From an uncultured Polaribacter sp. (GTDB taxonomy: Bacteria > Bacteroidota > Bacteroidia > Flavobacteriales > Flavobacteriaceae): a stretch of DNA of 64,000 bases. Location of the stretch: positions 186,001 to 250,000 of the forward strand of contig CALSRX010000005.1 of assembly GCA_943788865.1 (NCBI GenBank). The letters run 5' to 3'. The notes beneath the pieces were generated by a model. The model saw only the letters and a list, made by a program, of their open reading frames with translations. It was not told the origin of the DNA and made no database searches. Positions within the stretch are counted from its first letter, which is position 1, and every line of letters begins with the position of its first letter. Position numbers and translations under genes: made by a program. Below, one piece after another: positions 2,771-21,104 of this stretch.

Positions 2771-3799
2771 CTAAGGTTTATCAACAACCAATCTTTTATC
2801 TCTGTTTGAAATTTCCCAAGCAGTATGGAAAACCAATCGAGCTCTGTTTTGTAACAAATCGTAATTGATTTTGTCTGGAGTATCTGTATGTTGATGATAA
2901 TCATCGTGAGTACCATTAAAATAAAAGATGATTGGCACATTGTATTTTGCAAAGTTATAATGATCTGATCTGTAGTAAAAACGATTAGGATCTTTCTCAT
3001 CATTATAGGTATAATCTAATTCAATGTTTGTGTATTTTGTATTCATTGCTTCAGATAGGTCATGCAACTCTGTACTTAATTTATCTGCACCAATTAAATA
3101 CACATAATTTCTATCACCTTTACGTTTAGGGTCAATACGCCCCACCATATCAATGTTTAAGTTTGCAACTGTATTTGCAATTGGGAAAATAGGATTTTGA
3201 ACATAAAAACTAGAACCTAACAATCCTTTTTCTTCGCCAGTAACATGCAAAAACAAAACTGAACGTTTTGGTCTTTTGCCATCTTTTACTGCTTTTTGAA
3301 ACGCTTCTGCAATTTCTAACAAAGCAACAGTACCAGAACCATCATCATCTGCACCATTGTAAATTTTTCCATCTCGCATACCTACATGATCTAAATGAGC
3401 AGAAATTACTACAATTTCATCTGGTTTTTCGGAACCTTTAATATATGCAACAACATTTTCAGAATCTTTTAAAGGAACTCTTCTTTTTCTTTTGTTTAAA
3501 AAAGTAGCAGGAACTTCCTGAAAGTAATCATCGCCACCTAAAGGAGAAGCTATTCCATGATCTACATAAAATTTCTTTAAATAAGCAGCTGCTTTTTTCT
3601 GTCCAGGCTCCCCAGTATTTCTACCTTCAAATTCATCTGAAGCGTAAATAAATAAATGCTTTGCTAAGTCTTTATCTGTAATAGTTGCTGCGTATTTTTC
3701 TGAATAATCTACATTTGGATCTAAATTTGATGCATTTTTACTAGAGCTACAAGACACCAAAAGGGCAATTACACTAGCAGAGAGAATTAATTTTTTCAT
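2771..3799 (-). CDS. M28 family zinc aminopeptidase, lipoprotein
   Basis: 342 residues with a lipoprotein signal peptide, MKKLILSASVIALLVSC (lipid Cys17), so it is anchored to an envelope membrane. The M28 metal and catalytic motifs are all present: HLDHVG (His135, Asp137), GADDDGSG (bridging Asp near 151), VTGEEKG (Glu189-Glu190), DMVGR, and the late RSDHYNFA and HTDTPDKI segments with the last His ligand. It should use two Zn ions to remove N-terminal amino acids from peptides in the periplasm or at the cell surface. A strong terminator follows it. No operon partner is evident; the ABC genes upstream end 66 bp from its start. Confidence 0.9.
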   Translation of the reverse strand: MKKLILSASVIALLVSCSSSKNASNLDPNVDYSEKYAATITDKDLAKHLFIYASDEFEGRNTGEPGQKKAAAYLKKFYVDHGIASPLGGDDYFQEVPATFLNKRKRRVPLKDSENVVAYIKGSEKPDEIVVISAHLDHVGMRDGKIYNGADDDGSGTVALLEIAEAFQKAVKDGKRPKRSVLFLHVTGEEKGLLGSSFYVQNPIFPIANTVANLNIDMVGRIDPKRKGDRNYVYLIGADKLSTELHDLSEAMNTKYTNIELDYTYNDEKDPNRFYYRSDHYNFAKYNVPIIFYFNGTHDDYHQHTDTPDKINYDLLQNRARLVFHTAWEISNRDKRLVVDKP

Positions 3800-3865
3800 T
3801 GAAATAGTTTGTTAAATAAATTATTTGTTAGTTTTTAATATGTGCTGACGTCAAATATAAAAAAA

Positions 3866-4666
3866 CTAATTGTCTTTACTAATTGTAAATTGACCTAATC
3901 TTTTGTTGAAGCTTAAGATTTCTTTAGGAAATAGGTTGTCGAGTTTATTTTGCTCAATCAAATTTTCAGTTTTCCCACTAAAAACAGCATCTTTAGTCAT
4001 GACAATTAATTCATCAACAATTTCGATAGCTAAATTAATTTGATGCGTAGAAATAATGATTGTTTTTTGAGTGGTTTCTACAAGGTTTTTTAAGAGTTGA
4101 AAAATTTTATATGTATGATGCATATCTAAATGCGCGGTGGGTTCGTCTAAAATGATAACATCTGTATCTTGTGCCAATGCTCTGGCTATTAAAACACGTT
4201 GCAATTGTCCGTCACTCAATTCATAAAATCGATTGTCTTTTAAATGGGCTACTTCTGTTAGTTTGATCGCTGTGTTAATTTTTTCGATATCATATTCTGA
4301 AAGTGCATCAACCCAGTTTGTATAAGGTTGCCTTCCTAAGGCAATTAATTCAAATACGGTTAGTTGACTTTCTGGTAAGCGCTCTGTTAACACCAAGCTC
4401 AAATTGGTAGCCAATTCTTTATTGTTGTATTCTATTAAGTTTTTATCATTTAAAAAAACAGCTCCAGATAGTTGATTTTGGACTTTAGATATGGTTCTCA
4501 ATAAGGTAGATTTTCCGATTCCATTTTCTCCTAACAATGCTATAAATGTACCTTTTTCAATAGCTAAGTTTAAATCAGACGCAATAACTTTCTTTGTTTT
4601 TTTCTGCTGATAACCAATTGTTAAATTTTTGGTTTCTAAAACGATATGTTTCTTTGAGGTATCCAA
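3866..4666 (-). CDS. ABC transporter ATP-binding protein (FecE/BtuD type)
   Basis: 266 residues with Walker A (GENGIGKST), a signature loop LSDGQLQR (canonical LSGGQ modified to LSDGQ), Walker B/D-loop (VIILDEPTAHLD) and the switch His (STHQI). Length and spacing match the ATPases of iron-chelate, haem and cobalamin importers. It directly abuts the permease at 4667 and must be co-transcribed with it. No periplasmic binding protein is encoded beside them, so the substrate (ferric siderophore, haem or B12) cannot be decided here. Confidence 0.9.
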   Translation of the reverse strand: MDTSKKHIVLETKNLTIGYQQKKTKKVIASDLNLAIEKGTFIALLGENGIGKSTLLRTISKVQNQLSGAVFLNDKNLIEYNNKELATNLSLVLTERLPESQLTVFELIALGRQPYTNWVDALSEYDIEKINTAIKLTEVAHLKDNRFYELSDGQLQRVLIARALAQDTDVIILDEPTAHLDMHHTYKIFQLLKNLVETTQKTIIISTHQINLAIEIVDELIVMTKDAVFSGKTENLIEQNKLDNLFPKEILSFNKRLGQFTISKDN

Positions 4667-5692
4667 TTAAATGTACATTTTCTTTTTTCTAATTAATAAC
4701 CAAATTACTACAGGGGCTCCAAATAATGAAGTGATTGCATTGATTGGCAAGGTATATTCTACTGTTGGTAATTGCGCAATAATATCACAAATTAACAGCA
4801 CAATTGCTCCTGTGATTGCAGTAGCAGGAATTAATATTTTATGATTTGAAGTTGTAAAAATCAACTTTGCAATATGAGGAACAGCTAATCCAATAAAAGC
4901 AATTGGACCAGAAAAAGCTGTAATTACACCGGTTAATAAACTAGTGATTGCTAAAATAATGATTCTACTTTGCTTAATATTTATTCCTAAGCTTTTGGCA
5001 TATTTTTCTCCTAACAACAAACTATTTAAAGGTTTAATTATGGCAAAAACACCAATAAATCCAATTAAATATATGCTAATAAAAACAGTAAGTTCATCCC
5101 AAGATAAATTCCCTAAACTACCAAAACTCCAAAATACATATTGCTGAATTTGCTGTGCTTCACTAAAATAGGACAATACACTGATGATAGCCGCCGTAAA
5201 ACTTCCAAACATCAACCCGATGATTAAAATAGACATGGTGTTTCTTACTTTATTAGCTGCTAAAATGACTGCTGATAAAACCAAAAAAGAACCTAAACTA
5301 GAAGCAATTGCTATTGACCAACTTGAAGACTCTAAAAATAGAAAGCTTCCAAAAAAGGAAGAACCTAAAATGAGTAATGCAACCCCTATACTTGCACCAG
5401 AAGAAATCCCTAATACAAATGGCCCCGCTAACGGATTTCTAAACAAGGTTTGCATTAATAAACCACTTATAGACAATCCAGAGCCAACTAAAATTGCTGT
5501 GATTGCTTTAGGTAATCTAAAATTTAAAATGATAGTTTGCCAACTGTCTTTAACGGTTTCATCACCTAAAAAAATGGCGAAAATATCTTTAAAAGGAATA
5601 GAAACAGAACCTAAACTAATGTTTACAAAACACAAAAATACTACTAGAATTAGTAATAAGATAAATTGTTTTGTGTATGTTTTGTTTTTCAT
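4667..5692 (-). CDS. FecCD-type ABC transporter permease
   Basis: 341 residues, highly hydrophobic with about ten membrane segments. It carries the FecCD hallmarks: an N-terminal FRLPKAITAILVGSGLSISG, the LAGPFVLGISSGASIG loop, and near the C-terminus GPIAFIGLAVPHIAKL, which docks the ATPase. It pairs with the ATPase gene downstream with no intergenic base. Family members import iron chelates, haem or cobalamin. The partner binding protein is missing from this locus and would have to be encoded elsewhere. Confidence 0.9.
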   Translation of the reverse strand: MKNKTYTKQFILLLILVVFLCFVNISLGSVSIPFKDIFAIFLGDETVKDSWQTIILNFRLPKAITAILVGSGLSISGLLMQTLFRNPLAGPFVLGISSGASIGVALLILGSSFFGSFLFLESSSWSIAIASSLGSFLVLSAVILAANKVRNTMSILIIGLMFGSFTAAIISVLSYFSEAQQIQQYVFWSFGSLGNLSWDELTVFISIYLIGFIGVFAIIKPLNSLLLGEKYAKSLGINIKQSRIIILAITSLLTGVITAFSGPIAFIGLAVPHIAKLIFTTSNHKILIPATAITGAIVLLICDIIAQLPTVEYTLPINAITSLFGAPVVIWLLIRKKKMYI

Positions 5693-16787: not shown

Positions 16788-17009
16788 TTAATATTCATCT
16801 TCGTTCCAAAGATAATCTTCTTCGGTCGGATAGTCTGGCCAAATTTCTATAATAGAATCATAAGCATCGCCTTCATCTTCAATTTCTTGCAAGTTTTCTG
16901 CAACTTCCAATGGCGCTCCTGTTCTAATAGCGTAATCTATCAATTCATCTTTCGTTGCTGGCCAAGGTGCATCTGCTAAATAAGATGCCAATTCTAGTGT
17001 CCAATACAT
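16788..17009 (-). CDS. DUF2795 family protein
   Basis: 73 residues, very acidic, with the DUF2795 pattern MYWTLELASYLADAPWPATK then LIDYAIRTGAPLEVAENLQ and a C-terminal tail rich in Asp, Glu and Trp. The fold resembles a small winged-helix-like domain and the family is conserved in Bacteroidetes. No function is known. It is monocistronic, between secA and the cobalamin adenosyltransferase gene, with its own terminator. Confidence 0.85.
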   Translation of the reverse strand: MYWTLELASYLADAPWPATKDELIDYAIRTGAPLEVAENLQEIEDEGDAYDSIIEIWPDYPTEEDYLWNEDEY

Positions 17010-17099
17010 TTTTAGTATAGTTTAATTTTCTGCAAAAATAATTTTTTTATTCAGAAAACCAAGTTTTTTTTGATAAATCTGTCAATAAAATAAAAGAAC

Positions 17100-17675
17100 T
17101 TATTTTTCTTTTTCAGGAATCCAAGGAGTTTCCTTTATTGATAAGTCTTTAGACAACTTCCGTGCCAATACAAATAGGTAGTCAGAAAGTCTGTTTAAAT
17201 ATTCTAATATAGCAGGATTAATTGTTTCGTTTTTGTTTAAGGCAGTTGCTAATCTTTCGGTTCTACGGCATACACATCTAGCAATGTGACAGAATGACAC
17301 CGTTTGACCTCCGCCAGGTAAAATAAAATTTGTCATAGCAGGCAAGTCTAAATTCATAGCATCTATTTCTTGCTCTAAGACTTTAATATTTGCACTTGTA
17401 ATTTTAGGAATATTTAAACGCTCTTTGCCATTTTTTAAGAGTTCTTTTTCTGGAGGAGTTGCTAACATCGCACCAAGAGTGAATAATTCATTTTGAATTC
17501 TAATCAAAGAGTTGATAGCGTTTTTGTCAATTTTCTGATCTCTAATTAGACCTATATAAGAGTTTAGCTCATCAACGGTACCGTAAGATTCTATTCTTAA
17601 ATGATGTTTAGGAACTCTTGTTCCTCCAAACAAAGCTGTGGTTCCTTTGTCTCCTGTTTTGGTGTAAATCTTCAT
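17100..17675 (-). CDS. PduO-type cob(I)alamin adenosyltransferase
   Basis: 191 residues. KIYTKTGDKGTTALFGGTRV is the N-terminal ATP-binding segment; RIESYGTVDELNSYIG and ILPGGGQTVSFCHIARCVCR with RRTER complete the active site at the trimer interface. The enzyme transfers the adenosyl group of ATP to cob(I)alamin to make coenzyme B12. No B12 synthesis genes accompany it, so the cell probably salvages corrinoids. Adenosylcobalamin would also be the expected ligand for the MerR/B12-fold regulator at 29982 if that protein works like CarH. It is 24 bp after the methyltransferase gene and likely co-transcribed. Confidence 0.93.
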   Translation of the reverse strand: MKIYTKTGDKGTTALFGGTRVPKHHLRIESYGTVDELNSYIGLIRDQKIDKNAINSLIRIQNELFTLGAMLATPPEKELLKNGKERLNIPKITSANIKVLEQEIDAMNLDLPAMTNFILPGGGQTVSFCHIARCVCRRTERLATALNKNETINPAILEYLNRLSDYLFVLARKLSKDLSIKETPWIPEKEK

Positions 17676-17699
17676 TAGATAAAATTACGAATTAACTAT

Positions 17700-18473
17700 T
17701 TAAACTCTTATTATAAAATGTTCTTTTTCTTGCTCTTTTCTAAAAAAAACAATTCCCCACTGATAGGTGTCAATTGAAACTTTCACTTTTGGATGTAGTT
17801 TTATTTCCTGCCAAGCACTTTCCATTTCTTTGCTACAATGAATATCATCAAAAATAAAGAAACTATCGTTGTTAATGAAATTAAGAGAATGATTGAAATA
17901 TTTTAAGGTTGCTTCTTTTTGATGATTTCCATCAAAATAAACCATATCTAAAGAATTTTTAAATTTTAATGTTGATAAAGTTTTGGAAAACTCTCCTGTG
18001 TAAACATCAATGTTTTTGAAAGAAAATTTTTCAAATTGTTTTATTGCAATTCCGGCAGTGTTTTCGCAACCTTCTAGTGTGCTTATTTTTGAAGTCGGAT
18101 TTCCAATATGCAATGCTGCTGTTCCCATACCAAGAGAAGTGCCAAATTCTAAAATGGTGTTTGGTTTTAAATACGCCGTAATTTTAATTAGTAAATTTGC
18201 TCGTTTAGTCTGTATTCCAGCGTGTTTAGCAACTCTAGAAACTTCTCTTGTATTACTTTTAAAAATTTTTGACCCTGCTCCAAAATCTGTAACTTCAATT
18301 ACATTATGGTTATTTAAAAGACTTCTTTTGTAAGATTTAAAAGCCGCACTTTCTAACGTGTTATTTTTCTTATGGAAACATTTTGTAATTAAATCAAAAA
18401 CAAAAGGAGAGTGGATTCCATGATGATTTGTTGAATAAAAAAGAAATGTTATGTAGGAAATAATTTTTTGCAT
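17700..18473 (-). CDS. SAM-dependent O-methyltransferase-like protein
   Basis: 257 residues. The Rossmann core shows motif I ILEFGTSLGMGTAALHIG, motif II acidic end STLEGCE, and DMVYFDGNHQKEATLKYF followed by FFIFDDIHCSKEMESAW, the layout of class I O-methyltransferases. The N-terminal HGIHSPFVFDLITKCF is typical of a Flavobacteriia-specific subgroup. The substrate is unknown. It begins about 85 bp from the divergent wza-like gene and reads into the adenosyltransferase gene. Confidence 0.8.
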   Translation of the reverse strand: MQKIISYITFLFYSTNHHGIHSPFVFDLITKCFHKKNNTLESAAFKSYKRSLLNNHNVIEVTDFGAGSKIFKSNTREVSRVAKHAGIQTKRANLLIKITAYLKPNTILEFGTSLGMGTAALHIGNPTSKISTLEGCENTAGIAIKQFEKFSFKNIDVYTGEFSKTLSTLKFKNSLDMVYFDGNHQKEATLKYFNHSLNFINNDSFFIFDDIHCSKEMESAWQEIKLHPKVKVSIDTYQWGIVFFRKEQEKEHFIIRV

Positions 18474-18557
18474 AAAAATAATAACAAAATTAAAAGAAAA
18501 TTATAGGATTAGCGGTATAAAAATTATATTTTTGAGTAGTAAGCATATTTTAGATTT

Positions 18558-19307
18558 ATGCTTAAGCGATTTTTTATATTCCTCTCTTTAATTTTTTTAG
18601 CTTCCTGTGTTCCAAATAAAGATTTAATTTATTTGCAAGGAGAACCCATAACAAAAAAAAATGTTTACAAATTAAATAATGAACCTTATAGGCTACAAGT
18701 AGATGATGTTTTGTCTATAGAACTTAAAGCAGAGGATGAAAAGTATGTAGCACTTTTTAAAAAAACGAATGTTCCAAGTCAGCTAAGTTCTAATAATGGA
18801 GGTTTTGAGAGTGGGTCAAGTCCACAAGTTGGTTATAGAATAGATAGACATGGTAACATTAGATTACCAATAATTGGTGAAATAAATGTATTAGGATATA
18901 CCACCAAAGAAGTTCGTTTAAAATTAGAAGAGGAGCTTTTAAAATACCTTAAAAGCAAAGATAAATTTTTTGTAACTGTTGATTTGTCTGGAATTAAATA
19001 TACCGTAATTGGTGAAATTCAAAACCCTGGACCAAAGGTGATTTATCAAAATAAAGTAAGTATTTTAGATGCAATATCTAACTCTGGAGACATCACCGTT
19101 ACTGGTAATAAGAAAAAAGTTGAAGTTTGGAGAAATACGATAAATACAAGAACAAAGAGGTTGCAAATATTAGTTATGTTCTTAACGACTTCTCAGTACA
19201 AGGAAAATATGGTTACGGCTATGGTTACGGTTATGGACAATATGGAAACGGATATCATGAAGATGAAGATTCATCTAATTTCTTTACTAAGATTTTTAAA
19301 TTGTTAA
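18558..19307 (+). pseudogene. Polysaccharide export protein (Wza-like), 3' end replaced
   Basis: The first about 190 residues are a normal outer-membrane polysaccharide export lipoprotein: signal FLASC, the LYDL-equivalent QVDDVLSIELKAE, the poly-export domain IDRHGNIRLPIIGEINVLGY, and the SLBB domain KYTVIGEIQNPGPKVIYQ followed by SILDAISNSGDITVTG. After about base 19128 the frame becomes unrelated (RTKRLQILVMFLTT...) and ends at 19307, so the last part of the SLBB region and the C-terminal membrane segment are missing. In the next frame the sequence is the tail of a Wzc kinase. A deletion of the wza 3' end and most of wzc best explains this. Confidence 0.75.
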
Positions 19308-19321
19308 AACCTAAATCTTAA
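19127..19321 (+). pseudogene. C-terminal remnant of a Wzc-type tyrosine autokinase
   Basis: Read one frame over from the wza-like gene, this gives KYKNKEVANISYVLND, then a Tyr-Gly cluster (KYGYGYGYGYGQYGNGY), acidic residues and the basic end KIFKLLKPKS. A VLND motif followed by alternating Gly-Tyr, acidic residues and a basic tail is the C-terminus of flavobacterial Wzc kinases, where the tyrosines are the autophosphorylation cluster. The roughly 700 residues that should precede it (Wzz domain, Walker motifs) are absent, and a stop codon lies just upstream in this frame. It cannot be a working kinase. Confidence 0.65.
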
Positions 19322-19325
19322 AAAT

Positions 19326-19356
19326 AAAAAGACCATGCTTAGCATGGTCTTTTTAT
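19326..19356 (+). terminator. Bidirectional terminator between wza/wzc remnant and fumC
   Basis: Stem AAAAAGACCATGC/GCATGGTCTTTTT with a TTA loop, 5 bp after the remnant's stop and 18 bp from the fumC stop on the other strand. Confidence 0.9.
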
Positions 19357-19373
19357 TTTTAAAGAATTGTAAT

Positions 19374-20771
19374 TTATTTTAAACTTCCTGTCATTTCTTC
19401 AGGCTTAACCCATTCATCATATTGTTCTGGTGTAACATACCCTAAACGAACTGCTTCTTCTTTTAATGTTGTTCCGTTTGCGTGAGCTGTGTTTGCTATT
19501 TCTGCAGCTTTATAATATCCTATTTTTGTATTTAAAGCTGTAACTAGCATTAAAGAATTATTCAATAATTCTGTTATTCTTGCCTGATTAGGTTCAATTC
19601 CAACAGCACAATTTTCATCAAAAGATTTACAAGCATCTCCAATTAATTGAGCAGATTGCAAAACGTTTGCAGCCATCATTGGTTTAAAAACATTTAATTC
19701 ATAATGCCCTTGTGTACCACCAACAGTAACAGCAATATCATTTCCCATAACTTGTGCACAAACCATAGTTAGTGCTTCTGCTTGAGTTGGATTTACTTTA
19801 CCTGGCATAATAGAGCTTCCTGGTTCGTTTGCAGGAATGATTATTTCTCCAATTCCAGATCTTGGACCTGAAGCCATTAAACGTATGTCATTTGCAATTT
19901 TATTTAAAGAAACGGCTAATTGTTTTAGCGCCCCGTGAGTTTCTACTAAAGCATCGTGTGCTGCAAGAGCTTCAAATTTATTTTCTGCAGTTACAAAAGG
20001 TAAGCCTGTAAATTCTGCTATATATTTTGCCACTAAAACATCATAACCTTCTGGTGTATTCAAACCTGTACCTACAGCAGTCCCCCCTAAAGCTAATTGC
20101 GATAAATGCTCTAATGTATTTTTTAAAGCTTTGATACCAAAGTTTAATTGTGCTACATAACCAGAAAATTCTTGTCCTAAAGTTAGGGGAGTAGCATCCA
20201 TTAAATGTGTACGCCCAATTTTTACAACATCCTTAAAAGCTTCTGATTTTTTTTGTAAAGTATCTCTTAATTGCTCAACACCAGGAATGGTAACCTCTAT
20301 AATTTTCTTGTATGCGGCAATATGCATTCCAGTTGGAAAAGTGTCGTTTGAAGATTGCGATTTGTTTACATCGTCATTAGGCTGAATTGTTTTTTCTCCT
20401 TCTCCAATAATGTTTCCTGCAATTTCATGAGCTCTATTGGCAATTACCTCGTTACAATTCATATTTGATTGTGTTCCAGAGCCAGTTTGCCAAATGACTA
20501 ATGGAAATTGATCATCATGCTTTCCTTCTAAAATTTCATTACAAACCTGAGCAATTAAATCTCTTTTTTCTGAAGCCAATACATCTAAATCACAGTTGGC
20601 AAAAGCTGCCGCTTTTTTTAAATATGCAAAACCATAAACAATTTCTATTGGCATAGATGCAGGTGCTCCAATTTTGAAGTTATTTCTAGAACGTTCTGTT
20701 TGTGCTCCCCAATATTTATCAGCTGGAACTTTTACTTGCCCCATTGTGTCTTTTTCTATTCTGTATTTCAT
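19374..20771 (-). CDS. fumC: Class II fumarate hydratase
   Basis: 465 residues, full family length. The fumarase/aspartase signature [16 protein letters not shown] is present, along with [17 protein letters not shown] and [20 protein letters not shown], which supplies the catalytic His. The enzyme interconverts fumarate and malate in the TCA cycle without an iron-sulfur cluster. Monocistronic, between two convergent or divergent neighbours. Confidence 0.97.
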
Positions 20772-20930
20772 TGTGTGTATTGTTTTTTAGCTACTACAAA
20801 ATTACTAAAAGTATCACAATCGGTTATCAACAATAAGAGAAAATACTTGTTCAAAATAATTTTTAATTATTAGTGTAAATTGAAAATATGTATTATTTTT
20901 GTGATATTAATTTATTTTAAAGAAACACAA

Positions 20931-21104
20931 ATGTTAGATTTTTCAGAATTTTCAGGATTTTTATTATTCATGTTTATTTTTACAGCTGGTTTTTGGTTGT
21001 TAATTTTCTTATTAACGTTTGTGGTTCCTTACTGGATTGGTGGTACAATTTGGGAGAACATGAAATTAAAAAGAGAAGCTAGAAAAGCTGCTGATAAAGA
21101 GTAG
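20931..21104 (+). CDS. Small membrane protein (57 aa)
   Basis: From the Met of MLDFSEFSGFLL, the product is 57 residues: one long hydrophobic stretch (FLLFMFIFTAGFWLLIFLL) that may cross the membrane twice, then a basic-acidic tail ending KREARKAADKE. An upstream in-frame ATG at 20880 would add 17 hydrophobic residues and probably lies in the promoter region. A strong terminator follows. I do not recognise the family. Confidence 0.6.
   Translation: MLDFSEFSGFLLFMFIFTAGFWLLIFLLTFVVPYWIGGTIWENMKLKREARKAADKE

Follow-up and report, generated by a model that had tools for sequence, protein, structure and literature searches.

The window, by which we mean the whole 64,000-nucleotide stretch of an uncultured Polaribacter sp. 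contig analyzed here, contains a 249-aa open reading frame that scores as a polysaccharide export protein, and the question it raises is whether this frame encodes a short but working exporter or is what remains of a larger locus. Comparison with relatives makes it highly likely that the locus is a gene-loss scar, in which one 2.5-kb deletion ran across adjacent wza and wzc genes and joined the remainders out of frame. This reading explains why a misleading 249-aa frame still gives an export-protein score. The features discussed below are as follows.

17700-18473, minus strand: methyltransferase gene (Pfam Methyltransf_24), flank, divergent from wza
18558-19138, plus strand: 5' remnant of wza (outer-membrane polysaccharide export protein, OPX), with Poly_export and the first part of SLBB_2
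18558-19307, plus strand: hybrid ORF of 249 aa, about 194-196 Wza residues followed by about 53-55 out-of-frame residues
19139-19145, plus strand: deletion junction GATAAAT, from alignments to HJF.25 and G020
19139-19321, plus strand: 3' remnant of wzc (BY-kinase), comprising the final 60 codons, Tyr-Gly-rich tail included, and the stop, in a frame different from that of wza
19318-19362, no strand assigned: terminator-like inverted repeat between the wzc stop and fumC, 98% identical to its own reverse complement (G000:C5:205318-205362, minus)
19374-20771, minus strand: fumC, flank

Following the original prediction and general knowledge, we take 19374-20771 to be fumC (fumarate hydratase); a further neighbor of the locus in relatives is presumably cobA (cobalamin adenosyltransferase).

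Two gene remnants joined out of frame

The hybrid ORF is listed among the open reading frames of the window as open from 18558 to 19307, without internal stops. Pfam places Poly_export (PF02563) at residues 41-133 with an E-value of 8.8e-13 and 48.7 bits (cut-off 28), whereas SLBB_2, which ends at position 49-50 of its 79-position profile, scores below its cut-off. In the Wza homologue of genome G020 (260 aa), SLBB_2 is complete and above the cut-off, and a C-terminal hydrophobic segment is visible by eye. Of the parts that make up an OPX/Wza protein, the hybrid therefore has Poly_export and lacks both a complete SLBB domain and the native C-terminus.

From 19139 onward a second frame translates as DKYKNKEVANISYVLNDFSVQGKYGYGYGYGYGQYGNGYHEDEDSSNFFTKIFKLLKPKS followed by a stop, and carries the Tyr-rich C-terminus YGYGYGYGYGQYGNGY of a Wzc kinase. 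Because this 60-residue tail by itself matches no Pfam family, its assignment to Wzc rests on a homologue: when the 828-aa Wzc of Polaribacter sp. HJF.25 was searched against the window's own genome (G000), the scar was matched by residues 754-828 at 84% identity (E 2.4e-29), far above chance level. The HJF.25 protein itself scores 156.1 bits against TIGR01007 (cut-off 108.05), and its Pfam Wzz match, at 22.4 bits, lies slightly under the cut-off. At the scar the periplasmic part and the Walker-type kinase domain of a Wzc BY-kinase are absent, and a profile search of the G000 assembly with TIGR01007 returned no match there. A naturally short Wza was considered and ruled out, since the remainder of the sequence is Wzc in another frame. 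Among plasmid records searched with the hybrid protein, all 30 matches fell below 60% identity and none was credited with 80% coverage of the query. In the Wzc tail the Tyr-Gly repeat (19208-19255) is six residues shorter than in HJF.25.

The paired arrangement is known from E. coli, where an OPX protein and a PCP-2 BY-kinase form the Wza-Wzc export pair (PMC11986026; PMC12881504). The window keeps the Poly_export/SLBB part of the former and the Tyr-rich tail of the latter but, unlike the E. coli pair, has most of wzc and the 3' end of wza deleted.

The deletion and its junction

Relatives were collected through fumC, and among the best 80 of 569 confirmed loci the top match was a Polaribacter sp. 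HJF.25 MAG (L037, JALQYN010000032.1) at 94-96% DNA identity, which contains the G124:C44 stretch letter for letter. Window positions 17001-19157 align to it at 95.6% over 2158 columns and positions 19139-21000 at 93.5% over 1890 columns. The flanks and both remnants are colinear with HJF.25 and with G020 (79-87%), with a single gap in each comparison. Both relatives share the gene order cobA, methyltransferase (opposite strand), wza, wzc, fumC (opposite strand). Thus, orthologues stand in place in relatives and the window differs by one colinear gap, as expected of a pseudogene formed by deletion. The original prediction had proposed comparing this locus in close relatives, and the comparison bears it out: wzc is intact in HJF.25, and both genes are intact in G020, between the same flanks. 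Full-length matches to both Wza and Wzc were found in G020 and G081, and the HJF.25 Wzc is also full length.

The break itself can be placed closely. The left partner, HJF.25 wza, reads GGAGAAATAC GATAAAT GGTAG, the right partner, HJF.25 wzc, reads ATGATTGAT GACAAAT ACAAG, and the window reads GGAGAAATAC GATAAAT ACAAG, identical to the left end in HJF.25 wza up to GATAAAT. Since the window matches the wza partner leftward and the wzc partner rightward, the junction lies within 19139-19145. Four base pairs, AAAT, are exactly common to both deletion ends in HJF.25, and the shared ends would reach 7 bp if the lost wzc end read GAT at its aspartate codon, as it does in G020. Relative to HJF.25 the window is without 2503 bp, and relative to the one-contig genome G020 without 2495 bp; alignment to these relatives shows the missing part to comprise the 3' portion of wza and the whole of wzc apart from its last 60 codons. 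The earlier reading from the sequence, of a Wza head joined to an out-of-frame Wzc tail by a deletion of more than 2 kb with both break points inside the genes, thus agrees with the Pfam and HJF.25 matches and with the size of the gap, and only its boundary, set at about 19128/19130, has to be moved some 10 bp downstream. Allowing up to three mismatches, the junction was found in one of 146 genus genomes, namely G000.

We propose that an ancestor carried adjacent wza and wzc genes between the divergent methyltransferase gene and fumC, and that a single 2.5-kb deletion, with its ends at a 4-7 bp stretch common to the two genes, would have taken about the last 65 wza codons together with the whole of wzc up to its last 60 codons. 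The deletion probably arose by replication slippage or by short-homology end joining. Short direct repeats can likewise mark the ends of spontaneous deletions (PMC3411829; PMC5426353), although the homology exceeded 10 bp at the 22 confirmed junctions in Salmonella (PMC3411829), compared with 4-7 bp here. Non-mucoid Klebsiella variants have likewise lost function in capsule genes, wza and wzc among them, in part by deletion; among the events tabulated in PMC7590720 are insertions of IS elements, point changes, and deletions of small size, whereas the window has one 2.5-kb deletion over two genes in a flavobacterium. Our literature searches returned nothing on Polaribacter wza and wzc, and nothing that combines phage resistance with capsule and wzc deletion in flavobacteria.

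What the genome retains and how old the scar may be

The genome of the window, G000, is a 2.37-Mb assembly of five contigs estimated to be 91.6% complete. A second Wzc was not found in it: the HJF.25 Wzc query matched only the scar and, at 29% identity, a sequence on C1, and TIGR01007 gave two matches, both under the cut-off and both away from the scar. In HJF.25 a second Wzc (42% identity) is encoded on a different contig, of 8.7 kb; no orthologue of this second wza-wzc contig was found in G000, where its 10 matches (65-83%) are scattered over four contigs. A second Wzc could sit in the unassembled part of G000. Poly_export has two matches in the genome, one at the scar and one in an 807-aa protein on C4 that has repeated SLBB domains as well.

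The Wza-Wzc route is therefore lost in the assembled genome, as had been predicted, while another export pair remains. The finding does not extend to capsule and EPS export as a whole, because the pair of the 807-aa OPX protein and a 374-aa Wzz protein is retained, and the cell need not have lost its surface polysaccharides altogether. The 807-aa OPX gene (G000:C4:762182-764411; L125:7757-11324) adjoins the gene for this 374-aa Wzz/GNVR protein, which has no kinase match, and the surrounding ORFs look by eye like nucleotide-sugar genes, an apparent sugar-polymer cluster. No glycosyltransferase cluster was seen by eye among the ORFs at 14-24 kb of the window, and the lost pair may have served either a capsule or another EPS. 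In E. coli-type systems Wzc is a regulator required for capsule export, and disruption of wzc in Klebsiella leads to non-capsulated cells (PMC11986026 and PMC7590720, respectively). The hybrid lacks the rest of SLBB, the Wza C-terminal segment, and the periplasmic and kinase parts of Wzc, and on these losses the export pair is very probably non-functional.

Two other readings of the locus have to be weighed against gene loss. The hybrid ORF could encode a short exporter that functions with its new tail, a reading compatible with its open frame and with a Poly_export score above the cut-off; we give it almost no credence, since SLBB_2 is cut and below the cut-off, the native C-terminal segment has been swapped for out-of-frame sequence, no partner Wzc was found in G000, and none of the other 145 genomes searched has the junction. 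Alternatively, the population may be intact and the assembler may have misjoined the two genes, or picked a deletion carried by only a minority of a mixed population. An assembly collapse had been named in the original prediction as the alternative, and a source assembly of five contigs and 91.6% completeness lends it some room. The joined pieces are, however, syntenic and in order, and the exact sequence common to both sides of the break is only 4-7 bp. In HJF.25 the longest exact word that both ends have in common measures 6 bp within 60 bp, and 11 bp, off register with the break, within 600 bp. Words of 4-11 bp lie below the usual k-mers of assemblers, and a k-mer assembler would not collapse on them. 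Collapse on k-mers was accordingly rejected as unlikely given the 4-7 bp of shared sequence, and we regard an artefact of any of these kinds as very improbable.

The deletion, which we thus take to be a real gene loss, is probably recent. Between the window and HJF.25, pS and pN are 0.222 and 0.022 for the wza head (193 codons) and 0.263 and 0.034 for the wzc tail (60 codons), compared with 0.139 and 0.023 for the intact methyltransferase gene, 0.097 and 0.011 for cobA, and 0.222 and 0.006 for fumC; being uncorrected and taken from short pieces, these values give no date for the deletion. Both remnants still bear what looks like the mark of selection: their pN/pS ratios resemble those of the methyltransferase gene and cobA and exceed that of fumC. 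This and the absence of an additional stop or further decay argue for a young deletion. This is an ordinary, well-supported gene loss that by itself alters no general view, and its interest lies in being a young-looking case of a flavobacterium losing its Wza-Wzc export pair. In HJF.25 the wza gene (L037:11955-12745, minus strand; the same as in G124:C44) has a one-base frameshift relative to G020 with loss of the C-terminal ~40 residues, either real damage or a MAG error. Given this frameshift, the pair may have begun failing earlier in this lineage.

The wza-wzc pair across the genus

To place the scar in context we surveyed 146 genus genomes, a set that holds one genome per species and whose grouping seems to take in named Tenacibaculum genomes as well. 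Some Wzc was found in 96 of them (E <= 1e-60) and the methyltransferase in 59 (E <= 1e-30). Of these 59, 46 have a Wzc on the opposite strand no more than 4 kb from the methyltransferase gene (a count drawn from 51 Wzc rows), and wza was also present in all 16 stretches from these 46 genomes that were fetched and searched. The remaining 13 comprise the window's genome, three in which the locus lies at a contig end (G080, G088, and G158), and nine without the pair; only G080 among the 13 belongs to the 96 with a Wzc, and its Wzc is on another contig. In the nine (G007, G010, G014, G030, G073, G075, G110, G121, and G140) no wza or wzc match was found between the methyltransferase gene and fumC. 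Six of the nine are less than 90% complete, yet the methyltransferase-fumC interval is unbroken. It holds a 414-419-aa ORF in G007, G010, G014, and G121 and two 169-aa ORFs in G030, and measures 122-390 bp in the other four. A search of the nine for wza-wzc relics returned matches of 52-59 bp to the wza upstream region in G140, G073, and G030 and of 24 bp in G014; because the methyltransferase gene has its promoter side in this stretch too, such matches do not prove a former wza-wzc pair. In G140 (L149:6879-7202) the gap is 324 bp, of which 52 bp resemble the window's wza upstream region, with no wza-wzc match, possibly a complete loss of the pair in a near relative.

A fumC+cobA tree was built from 22 loci, representing 21 of the 59 methyltransferase-bearing genomes and the outgroup L069, which has the wza-wzc pair in the same order. 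The tree left out G021, G013, and G025, whose stretches have no fumC match, G080, G088, G158, G119, and G087, which have contig ends or partial genes, and the further methyltransferase-bearing loci L038, L040, L046, L050, and L060; L049 is apparently the same contig as G121:C93. The window groups with pair-bearing HJF.25 at a support of 1.0. The nine pairless genomes occupy five places (a clade of four, G140, G073, G030, and G110/G075), or six counting the window, in a tree that has weak nodes (0.28, 0.51, and 0.53) and joins G026 with G030 without printed support. This distribution suggests recurrent loss of the pair. We would offer only tentatively, as less probable than not, the wider idea that the pair beside the methyltransferase gene has been lost repeatedly in Polaribacter and near relatives, perhaps through phage selection or genome reduction; if true, the window would show one of these recurrent, adaptive losses soon after it happened.

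Beside fumC in general the pair is uncommon. Among the best 80 of the 569 loci found through fumC in named genomes, wza and wzc were both present in the fetched stretch of only four (L037, L056, L069, and L116), and in all 19 further stretches from the same genus or order (L126-L144) fumC was found without wza or wzc. Since few loci found through fumC carry wza-wzc, the pair follows the cobA-methyltransferase neighborhood and not fumC as such. In L030 (G021) the wzc match at 3241-5687 is split over two frames, residues 1-347 and 344-821, which suggests a frameshift in another relative.
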